64,000 nt of DNA from Indioceanicola profundi. Its GTDB lineage: Bacteria; Pseudomonadota; Alphaproteobacteria; Azospirillales; Azospirillaceae. The notes under the pieces are model-generated. The model was not told the DNA's origin. It did not search any database and saw only the letters and a program-made list of their open reading frames with translations. Within the stretch, counting starts at the first letter, position 1. Every line of letters starts with the position of its first letter. Shown here one piece after another: positions 45,778 to 47,862 of this stretch. The position numbers and the translations under genes are program-made. The stretch is from positions 62,001 to 126,000 of the forward strand of contig NZ_CP030126.1 in the NCBI RefSeq assembly GCF_003568845.1. Direction: 5' to 3'.

Positions 45778-45881
45778 CCGCGCCCAGCCCGGAATAAGGT
45801 CCCGCGATCGTAGAACGAATCGTTAACCATACCGGGTCAAACTCGCCCCATGGTTCGGTCGTGCATCAAGGGATCAGCGCA

Positions 45882-46445
45882 ATGACCTGCATCGTGGGAC
45901 TGGTTGACGGGAACGAGGTTTGGATGGGCGGGGACAGCGCCGGCGTAGCCGGGCTGGACATCAGCCTGCGTGCCGACCCCAAGGTCTTCCACAACGGCAA
46001 TTTCCTCATCGGCTTCACCAGCTCCTTCCGCATGGGGCAACTGCTGCGGTTCCGTCTGGCGCCCCCGCCGCGCCGACCGGAGCAGGACCTTTTCCATTAC
46101 ATGGTCTGCGACTTCGTCGAGGCCGTGCGGATCTGCCTGCGCGAGGGCGGCTTCGCCCACCGCAGCAACGACGTCGAGACCGGCGGGTTCTTCCTGGTGG
46201 GGGCCGAGGGGCGGCTTTTCTCGATCCAGGATGATTATCAGGTCAGCGAGTTCAATCGGGGCTATCACGCCATCGGTTGCGGCGCGTCCTACGCGCTCGG
46301 CTCCCTCTACAGCACCCGCGACCTGCCGGCCGGCGAGCGTGTGCGTCGTGCGCTGGAAACCGCGGAGCACTTCTCCGGCGGCGTGCGCGCGCCGTTCCTG
46401 ATCGAGCGGACCGGAGCTGTCCAGCCTGCGCTGGTGGCTGCGTAA
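45882..46445 (+). CDS. Proteasome/HslV-fold Ntn-hydrolase (T1 family) without a partner ATPase
   Basis: The ATG at 45882 follows AAGGGA and gives 187 residues. The sequence starts M-TCIVGL; after methionine removal, Thr1, Asp17 (GGDSAG) and Lys33 (DPKVF) stand at exactly the positions of the catalytic triad in proteasome beta subunits and HslV. The remaining fold (FLIGFTSSFRMGQLL, GGFFLVGAEGRLFSI, AIGCGASYALGSL) is consistent with that family. Similar stand-alone proteins are found in bacteria and phages; their substrates are not known. No HslU-like gene is nearby. A strong terminator follows. Confidence 0.8.
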   Translation: MTCIVGLVDGNEVWMGGDSAGVAGLDISLRADPKVFHNGNFLIGFTSSFRMGQLLRFRLAPPPRRPEQDLFHYMVCDFVEAVRICLREGGFAHRSNDVETGGFFLVGAEGRLFSIQDDYQVSEFNRGYHAIGCGASYALGSLYSTRDLPAGERVRRALETAEHFSGGVRAPFLIERTGAVQPALVAA

Positions 46446-46480
46446 AACGCTTTTATATCGAAGTAGTATATCTGTAATTG

Positions 46481-46518
46481 AAGCGCCCCGCCCTTGGCTG
46501 GGGCGCTTTTTCTTTTTT
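46481..46518 (+). terminator. Strong intrinsic terminator after the Ntn hydrolase gene
   Basis: AAGCGCCCC (46481-46489) pairs with GGGGCGCTT (46500-46508), 10-nt loop, followed by a TTTTTCTTTTTT tract. It lies 35 nt after the stop codon. Confidence 0.92.
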
Positions 46519-46605: not shown

Positions 46606-46675
46606 AAAGGAGGTAGTGTCAAGTGTGACCCCTTTTAGCGACTTTCGAACGAAATCATGTCTTTTCATGCATTGA
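46606..46675 (+). other. Possible leader ORF behind an orphan strong ribosome-binding site
   Basis: AAAGGAGG at 46606-46613 is the best ribosome site of the area but lies about 43 nt before the annotated binding-protein start. A GTG at 46625 would start a peptide of 16 codons ending at 46675, overlapping the start of the next gene in another frame. It may be a regulatory leader peptide or chance. Confidence 0.3.
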
Positions 46676-47418
46676 AAGCCGGTATCGCTGCGGCGATCCT
46701 GGTTTTTACTCCCCTGAGAGCAGCGGGTGCGGAAGAAGCACGGACGCTGGTGATCATGTATCCGGACATGAATCCGTTCATCCAGCCGGGGGAGCGTGAA
46801 GGGGAGGCCAGCGGGCCGCTGGTCGAATGGATTTCCCGCGTCGCGGGTGAGGCTGGCGTCAGCCTTGTCTGGAAGGGGCCGGTTCCACGGGCACGCATCC
46901 TGGCGGAGCTGGAAACCGGCGTCGAGGCATGCCACCCCAATGCGCGCCTGACGGAGCAGCGCGAGGGCAAATTCAAGTTCTCGGCCCCGCTGTTTCCGCC
47001 GCCCCGGTGGCGTGTCCTGACCCGACGGGGCAGCCAGGTGGAGGCTTTTGCAAGCGCGTCCGACCTTCTGCGGGACCAGTCGCTGGTCCTTGGTCATATG
47101 CTGGGCGCCACGATGGGGCCGGAGCTGGACGATATCCTTGCCCAGCGCAAGGGGAACACCCTGGCCGTTCGCGGGTCGCCGCTGGATCTGCTGCGCCTCC
47201 TGCGCGCCGGCCGCATCGATTATCTGGTAGCCGACATGACGGCGATCCCGGCGGACAGGGGGAATGTGAGCTTCTCGACAGACGATCTGCGCGAACTGCA
47301 GTTCGCCGACCTGCCGGAAGCCGACGCGGGGCGCATCATGTGCAGCCTTTCGGTCCCGGATCAGGTGATCGAGCGGTTGAACCGCGCCATCGAGGAGGTG
47401 CAGCGGACTTCGCCGTGA
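46657..47418 (+). CDS. Periplasmic solute-binding protein, family 3-like, orphan
   Basis: The protein has 253 residues. A signal peptide (MSFHALKAGIAAAILVFTPLRAAGAEE) precedes TLVIMYPDMNPFIQPGE, the first strand and ligand loop of amino-acid-type binding proteins. SGPLVEWISRVAGEAGVSLVWKGPVPRARILAELETG and the second lobe SPLDLLRLLRAGRIDYLVAD follow the family pattern. No permease or ATPase gene is adjacent, so it may serve a distant transporter or act as a sensor for a signalling protein. The ribosome site before the ATG is weak; a strong one lies further upstream. Confidence 0.78.
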   Translation: MSFHALKAGIAAAILVFTPLRAAGAEEARTLVIMYPDMNPFIQPGEREGEASGPLVEWISRVAGEAGVSLVWKGPVPRARILAELETGVEACHPNARLTEQREGKFKFSAPLFPPPRWRVLTRRGSQVEAFASASDLLRDQSLVLGHMLGATMGPELDDILAQRKGNTLAVRGSPLDLLRLLRAGRIDYLVADMTAIPADRGNVSFSTDDLRELQFADLPEADAGRIMCSLSVPDQVIERLNRAIEEVQRTSP

Positions 47419-47440: not shown

Positions 47441-47455
47441 GGGAAATTTTTTGCC
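47441..47455. promoter_or_regulatory. Imperfect palindrome upstream of the sigma-54 promoter
   Basis: GGGAAATTTTTTGCC is symmetric apart from one position pair and lies about 80 nt upstream of the -24 element, the usual distance for an enhancer-binding activator. The activator is unknown. This is a suggestion from position and symmetry only. Confidence 0.3.
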
Positions 47456-47531
47456 GACAACAAGGAAATATTAACACCTTCGAGTGGACAGAATCCTTCG
47501 TTAACGCCCCGTTTTCCTGACTTCCCATAGT

Positions 47532-47546
47532 TGGCACATTGCTTGC
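47532..47546 (+). promoter_or_regulatory. Sigma-54 (RpoN) promoter of the small exported peptide
   Basis: TGGCACATTGCTTGC matches the -24/-12 consensus TGGCAC-N5-TTGC at every fixed base, with GG and GC exactly ten bases apart. Transcription would start near 47558, giving a 75-nt leader before the peptide start codon. Sigma-54 promoters need an ATP-dependent activator. Confidence 0.75.
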
Positions 47547-47632
47547 TCATATCCGTTCTGCGTGTGTCGCCGGCGCGTCCGACCATCCGGAAGTGCGTTG
47601 AGCCGGCGAATGCGTCACGATGGGAGATAAGC

Positions 47633-47767
47633 ATGAAGAAGTTCAAGATGTTCGCCCTCGCTGCCCTGCTCGTCGCCGGTGTCGGCGCTGCCGGCGCCCA
47701 GGCCAATTTCGGTGCGGCCGATCAGGCCATTCCGGGTCCGGGCTGCGGCGGCTGCTGGCCGGACTGA
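47633..47767 (+). CDS. Small exported peptide with C-terminal CGGC motif
   Basis: The ATG at 47633 has GGGAG 6 nt upstream, an ideal ribosome site. The 44 residues begin MKKFKMFALAALLVAGVGAAGAQA, a clear signal peptide. The mature part is about 20 residues and ends PGPGCGGCWPD, with two cysteines (38 and 41) that could form a disulfide, bind metal or heme, or be modified. No maturation enzyme or exporter of a RiPP system is adjacent. A sigma-54 promoter precedes it and a terminator follows, so it forms its own transcription unit. Its role is unknown. Confidence 0.75.
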   Translation: MKKFKMFALAALLVAGVGAAGAQANFGAADQAIPGPGCGGCWPD

Positions 47768-47827
47768 CGTTCAGGGCGTGGGCAGGCCGGGAAACCGGGC
47801 TGCCCTCCTTGGCGGACAAGGAGTACC

Positions 47828-47862
47828 GAAGGCGTCGGCGAAAGGCCGGCGCCTTCACATTT
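47828..47862 (+). terminator. Intrinsic terminator after the small peptide gene
   Basis: A continuous 12-bp stem with one T-G pair (47828-47839 with 47845-47856, loop GAAAG) is followed by ACATTTT. It lies 60 nt past the peptide stop. The remaining gap up to 48086 holds no gene I can recognise. Confidence 0.75.

Follow-up and report, generated by a model that had tools for sequence, protein, structure and literature searches.

A reading frame of 44 codons lies behind a sigma-54 element on a contig of Indioceanicola profundi, which raises the question of whether it is a gene and, if so, with what its product acts. Small exported peptides are easily overlooked by gene callers, and this one offers three handles: its sigma-54 promoter core recurs, its tail is conserved and its partner gene is always the same. 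The peptide gene and its partner are together referred to as the module. The window is the whole stretch of DNA analyzed here (64,000 nucleotides, contig NZ_CP030126.1, positions 62,001 to 126,000), and the features of the locus are numbered from its first base:

46480..46509, + strand: intrinsic-terminator-like hairpin with T-run, 5' of the binding-protein gene (terminator scan)
46657..47418, + strand: SBP_bac_3-type periplasmic binding protein, 253 aa, the constant partner gene (PF00497; adjoins the peptide gene in 12/12 modules)
47532..47546, + strand: sigma-54 -24/-12 element TGGCACATTGCTTGC, 86 nt before the ATG (core before 10/12 homologous genes)
47558, + strand: expected transcription start, inferred as 12 nt after the GC at 47545-47546 (sigma-54 spacing rule)
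47622..47626, + strand: Shine-Dalgarno-like GGGAG (sequence)
47633..47767, + strand: peptide gene, 44 aa, MKKFKMFALAALLVAGVGAAGAQANFGAADQAIPGPGCGGCWPD (ORF of 44 codons with ATG at 47633; homologues; dN/dS)
47633..47704, + strand: signal-peptide-like N-terminus with basic start, hydrophobic core and AQA before the likely cut (sequence)
47744..47764, + strand: C-terminal tail CGGCWPD, i.e. CxxC plus 3 residues (alignments)
47772..47811, + strand: hairpin 3' of the stop codon (-29.7 kcal/mol, z -3.82)
47828..47856, + strand: second hairpin with 12-bp stem, followed by ACATTTT, a possible terminator (-25.8 kcal/mol, z -5.24)

Reading frame and promoter in the window

An earlier sequence-only reading of this locus described a ribosome site and a 44-codon gene, and both are present at 47622-47626 and 47633-47767. 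The N-terminus of the product has a best 12-residue mean hydropathy of 2.61 and, as read by eye, an AQA-N cut site; the peptide is probably exported, with a mature part of about 20 residues. The same reading called the -24/-12 element perfect. The element is near-consensus and does lie 86 nt from the ATG, but it has an A for the G of the sigma-54 consensus TGGCACG-N4-TTGC. As a rule, sigma-54 transcripts start about 12 nt after the GC of the -12 element. The “clear terminator” fared less well: there are indeed two strong hairpins 3' of the ORF, but the second is followed only by ACATTTT, neither has a good T-run, and neither is among the sites of the terminator scan, which listed 3 sites in the region against 2.0 expected from shuffles, the one at 46480-46509 having the longest stem (11 pairs). 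The imperfect palindrome seen at enhancer distance does not stand out, as its score is equalled or beaten in 72 of 100 versions of the intergenic stretch obtained by dinucleotide shuffling.

The exact 15-mer TGGCACATTGCTTGC occurs a single time in the 5.37-Mb window genome. The pattern TGGCAYR-N4-TTGC has 25 sites there vs. 10 for a reversed-pattern control, and the 25 include those of both peptide genes of this genome; some others precede ORFs that, by eye, we take to resemble a flagellar hook gene and pspA. An RpoN gene (PF04552, 225.8 bits, cut-off 22.8; searched for in the window genome only) occupies G000:C1:55630-56109, some 6 kb ahead of where the window starts.

Strict sigma-54 sites in the window genome also precede three short ORFs of 47-65 codons (L153, L157 and L167; G000:C1 near 147231, 1072231 and 2790371). 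Their products have similar hydrophobic C-termini (VLCLAQLF, VLCLSQIF and VVTLNGLF) with no Pfam or NCBIfam match, and perhaps form a second family of sigma-54-linked small proteins. A small contig carries two further strict sites (L175 and L176; G000:C4, 835-1072) in back-to-back arrangement with about 210 nt between them, one of which precedes an ORF that looks cytochrome-c-like by eye.

The peptide family and its promoter core

The earlier reading looked to relatives for a homologous small ORF with a conserved C-terminus, and such ORFs exist: twelve peptide genes in ten genomes, distributed among Nitrospirillum, Oleisolibacter, the window genome and G027, form one family, with two copies each in the window genome and Oleisolibacter. 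The Nitrospirillum group comprises Nitrospirillum iridis, three strains of N. amazonense, N. viridazoti, Azospirillum sp. B4 and G019, and the Oleisolibacter genome (G032) is O. albus. A profile built from four peptides matched 9 of the 82 family genomes at E <= 1e-18, i.e. the window genome, all seven of genus g2 (the Nitrospirillum group) and G032, the next match having an E of 0.009; the order-level search covered the same 82 genomes. An eight-peptide profile run over 385 genomes of the class gave a best E of 1.5e-3 apart from the window and added nothing; there was no Nitrospirillum among its matches, and hence none in the sample. In the plasmid records the peptide search gave one chance match (E 2).

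The peptides are 44-57 residues long, each with a basic start, a hydrophobic core and a C-terminal CxxC tail that ends 3 residues (in one case 7) after the second cysteine. The tails of the profile-found members include CGGCWPD, CRSCWPD, CQGCEPW, CNGCEPW, CGACQPW and CGSCGPW, and beyond the two cysteines the sole near-invariant residue is a proline (CxxCxP in 11 of 12). In the 605,050 strand-positions of the window and the retrieved loci, 12 ORFs of 35-70 codons combine a ribosome site, a signal-like hydrophobic N-terminus and CxxC near the end, and every one is a peptide of this family; the filter was set after the peptides were known. Seven of the 11 distinct peptide sequences were scanned with Pfam and NCBIfam and gave no match over cut-off; a likeness to EXPB1_D1 (Pfam; 19.1 bits, cut-off 27) was taken as chance, as were the other matches below cut-off.

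The hydrophobic cores, with mean hydropathies of 1.84-2.93 over 12 residues, would also suit an uncleaved N-terminus; the product would then be a small protein of the inner membrane, with its CxxC tail in the periplasm, that modulates a partner in the membrane. The peptide of the first Oleisolibacter copy has no obvious A-x-A cut site by eye. This appears unlikely to us, given that the cores are short, that the window member has a clean AQA-N site (also by eye) and that no membrane-protein gene recurs beside all module lineages.

Among six equal-length Nitrospirillum-group genes (G019, one codon longer, was left out), dN/dS is 0.15-0.55 in 14 of 15 pairs, and the remaining pair has no amino-acid change. 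On this evidence the Nitrospirillum peptide genes are under purifying selection, and the dN/dS values thus indicate a peptide that is translated and kept. The strong hairpins 3' of the ORF could instead suggest that the region is a sigma-54-driven non-coding RNA with an incidental ORF; with selection acting on the protein, a tail kept across distant lineages and nothing in the window that matches Rfam at gathering threshold, we give that suggestion hardly any credence. A tRNA reading of the region was likewise tried and rejected.

Short homologues with the same promoter, anticipated by the sequence-only reading, were found as well. TGGC-N7-TTGC starts at -71 to -101 nt of the ATG in 10 of the 12 peptide genes, or in four of six lineages if Nitrospirillum is counted once, and the GG and GC doublets of -24/-12 elements are present at fixed spacing in the window and in 10/12 modules. 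The background is 33 occurrences in 525,450 positions, the ten peptide-gene sites included, which gives a P of about 0.003 (0.28%) per 45-nt interval, an interval picked after the sites were known. The bases between the TGGC and TTGC halves vary from lineage to lineage, and six of the seven Nitrospirillum-group copies read TGGCCC, one step from TGGCAC. The two modules without the core are the second of Oleisolibacter, which has none of it, and that of G027, which has the TGGCAC half only. Before the binding-protein genes the core occurs in just 1 of 12, even by a looser pattern, with the position for G027 taken from an internal Met. Homologues that share the tail and, in most cases, the core support the proposal of a small peptide, probably exported, behind a sigma-54 element; a chance promoter before a chance ORF is ruled out by these homologues, the 25 vs. 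10 sites, the recurrent core and the count from the ORF filter.

Searches of 360 nt of the 12 genes with NifA, NtrC and IHF consensus patterns gave no site, nor was a candidate enhancer motif common to four lineages found. Non-coding blocks are conserved in the divergent intergenic region of the Nitrospirillum group (L070-L076): CTTAACGGATTAACAA and, in some strains, TTATTGCC-N4-GGCAATAA. It is possible that these are activator sites; no motif common to them and the other lineages was found.

The adjoining binding protein

A gene for an SBP_bac_3 protein lies directly beside the peptide gene in 12 of 12 modules, on the same strand in the window, in the second copy of the window genome (C3) and twice in Oleisolibacter, and divergently in Nitrospirillum and G027. 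The earlier view of a dedicated unit for one tiny peptide was incomplete: the peptide gene mostly has its own promoter, but a second gene belongs with it. In all nine profile-found genomes the gene 5' of the peptide is SBP_bac_3-like. A profile of the binding proteins, run over the family, revealed three more close relatives (E 1e-57 to 1e-79; window genome C3, Oleisolibacter C23 and G027), each with a small signal-like CxxC ORF alongside (tails CISCNPD, CRSCWPM and CPPCSVGGGAW); the sequence search had either not listed these peptides or not raised them above noise, and all three were found via the partner.

The next matches of this profile, at E of about 1e-40, are second Nitrospirillum binding proteins with no peptide. 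In this group (L136-L142, L151 and L152) the second binding protein is an open frame of about 305-319 aa, and no CxxC peptide was found beside it. At 29 more distant homologous loci (17 and a further 12) there is no signal-like CxxC ORF within 1.5 kb on each side, or less where a contig ends; some carry shapeless ORFs that contain C-x-x-C. Four weak matches of the family profile search had no locus and lie outside the loci examined. Two binding-protein motifs were scanned against 84,980 species and hit seven relatives, each belonging to a known module; the scan reaches only some close relatives, since Oleisolibacter 2, G019 and G027 were not returned. The plasmid records yielded one binding protein, at 21.5% identity.

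By blastp of six module surroundings and one peptide-less locus, the binding protein is the sole gene common to all. The window has a CitMHS transporter and, downstream, an RND adaptor and permease; Nitrospirillum has an SUV3-type helicase and, on the opposite strand, an RND pump; the first Oleisolibacter copy has porin O/P and, by eye, a bacterioferritin gene, the second a dehydrogenase and a chemotaxis receptor; and G027 has OmpA-like and spore-coat-U-like genes. About 4 kb separate the C3 copy from what looks by eye like a TRAP-like transporter. At 45861-46445 the window encodes a 194-aa protein with sub-threshold likeness to proteasome beta and HslV. Because the other neighbours differ between modules, the unit is taken to consist of two genes; the seven Nitrospirillum modules are closely related, which leaves about six lineages. 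Pumps beside the module in both the window and Nitrospirillum might make the peptide an accessory of the RND efflux pump, but the two pumps are only 26-28% identical and, by blastp, the listed ORFs near the remaining four modules include no pump homologue, and we rejected this very improbable role on account of those four.

In a tree of 32 binding proteins, all 12 that have a peptide fall on one branch, and none of the 20 others does. The support for this clade is moderate (88/85; the branch is present in 86% of 200 bootstrap trees); in 0 of 500 label shuffles was the peptide as clustered as observed, a result inflated by near-copies. The tree omits the second binding protein of G013, which is in two pieces (L142 and L147), L182, which is the same gene as L129, and the weaker loci L133, L146, L185-L189, L191 and L192. 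Next to the peptide clade stand the second Nitrospirillum binding proteins, again with no peptide.

The distribution bears on a further reading, in which the peptide alone serves as a periplasmic thiol or metal buffer via its CxxC, while the binding protein serves another ligand and is merely co-inherited or co-responsive. A tail in which little but the cysteines and one proline is kept, and a sigma-54 core that is regular before the peptide genes only, would fit such a buffer; a partnership that holds in 12/12 modules, in two gene orders and several contexts, and that among the loci examined ends at the clade border, would not be expected of it. We regard the buffer as a possible but doubtful explanation.

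The window binding protein matches PF00497 at 31.0 bits (cut-off 26.4) and reaches only 28.2 bits with TIGR02285 (NCBIfam), far below the cut-off of 143.3. A structural model from eight sequences has a pLDDT of 80 (36 with no alignment) and resembles amino-acid-binding proteins, arginine and glutathione binders included, with TM-scores of 0.42-0.56 by query length among the 50 matches listed; the low scores may be due to lobe orientation. The conserved R102 presumably matches the ligand-binding Arg of the LAO protein. D37 and G74 are fixed in the peptide clade and occur in 1 and 0 of the 20 others, respectively. C92 and C229 are invariant in the clade, and the others have either both (15) or neither (5), a pattern suggestive of a disulfide that is structural and has nothing to do with the peptide; as 15 of 20 peptide-less relatives also have the pair, it lends no support to thiol chemistry with the peptide.

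Possible function and likeness to known systems

Across differing surroundings the same combination of promoter core, selected reading frame, tail and neighbour recurs. Since an exported peptide and a periplasmic partner are both fixed, the simplest account is that the two meet, and we give an even chance to the view that the peptide acts with the adjacent binding protein, its simplest role being that of a ligand or subunit, in a two-gene module with a conditional peptide. The peptide would be exported and its N-terminus cleaved; the short mature tail peptide (about 20 residues for the window member) would meet the binding protein as ligand or subunit, and its CxxC may serve in thiol or metal chemistry. 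Through the sigma-54 promoter, the peptide would be conditional and the binding protein would not, the regulated step being the supply of ligand, not that of receptor. Adjacency and co-inheritance are no proof of binding, and a 20-residue peptide would be an unusual ligand because the relatives in sequence and fold bind amino acids and other small ligands. The twelve-fold pairing of peptide and binding protein points to a two-gene unit that is as yet undescribed; among the matches listed and in mostly open-access sources, our literature search found no account of such a module.

The amino-acid binders of SBP_bac_3, such as the arginine-binding 4zv1 and the glutathione-binding 4eq9, share the Pfam domain, the fold and the conserved R102 with the module protein. 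The latter differs in its fixed peptide neighbour, in its clade-specific D37 and G74 and co-varying cysteine pair, and in its surroundings, where the 14 neighbours (5 + 9) scanned with Pfam include neither an ABC permease nor an ATPase.

Gram-positive secreted peptide pheromones are taken up through oligopeptide-binding proteins, and they resemble the module in that an exported short peptide and an extracytoplasmic binding protein form a matched pair. In contrast to these systems, the module has a Gram-negative host, a binding protein of family 3 instead of family 5, a sigma-54 element and a CxxC tail, and no receptor regulator was identified for it. Tentatively, the module could be a Gram-negative autocrine or metallophore-like system, in which the sigma-54-controlled CxxC peptide, free or metal-loaded, is the cognate ligand of a dedicated periplasmic family 3 binding protein and paralogous pairs within one genome have separate specificities. 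Should the binding protein recognise the peptide, alphaproteobacteria related to Azospirillum would have a peptide-receptor pair of a new kind.

Of the known systems found, methanobactin MbnA with MbnE comes nearest in function. Methanobactin is a short cysteine-containing peptide from a small gene (PMC3621798), and MbnE is a periplasmic protein that binds the copper-loaded form (PMC7558416), so that both systems pair a short Cys peptide with a periplasmic binding protein. MbnE is OppA/AppA-like, whereas the window protein is SBP_bac_3; methanobactin has no signal peptide, unlike the Sec-like N-terminus of the window peptide; and there is no MNIO enzyme (PF05114) in the window genome. Bufferins and oxazolins, as described in PMC12452194, are small exported MNIO-modified cysteine peptides with Sec-type signals, and are similar to the module peptides in these signals and in being small, exported and cysteine-containing. 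The module peptides are instead paired with a binding protein, and the seven scanned have no DUF2282 match.

These likenesses raise the question of whether the peptide is the precursor of a modified peptide of methanobactin, bufferin or oxazolin type, with the cysteines as the modified residues. Its small size and C-terminal Cys-x-x-Cys are reminiscent of the methanobactin precursor end CGSCYPCSCM (PMC3621798), and bufferins likewise have Sec signal peptides. This is nevertheless quite improbable: none of the seven peptides scanned matches a Pfam or NCBIfam precursor family, blastp of the module surroundings found no common enzyme gene, and PF05114 is absent from 3 of 10 module genomes (G032, G027 and the window genome G000), which, within the reach of PF05114, rules out modification by MNIO enzymes for the window genome. 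In the seven Nitrospirillum-group genomes, PF05114 lies at least 150 kb from the module or on another contig, with two or three matches per genome, some of which are fragments at contig ends.
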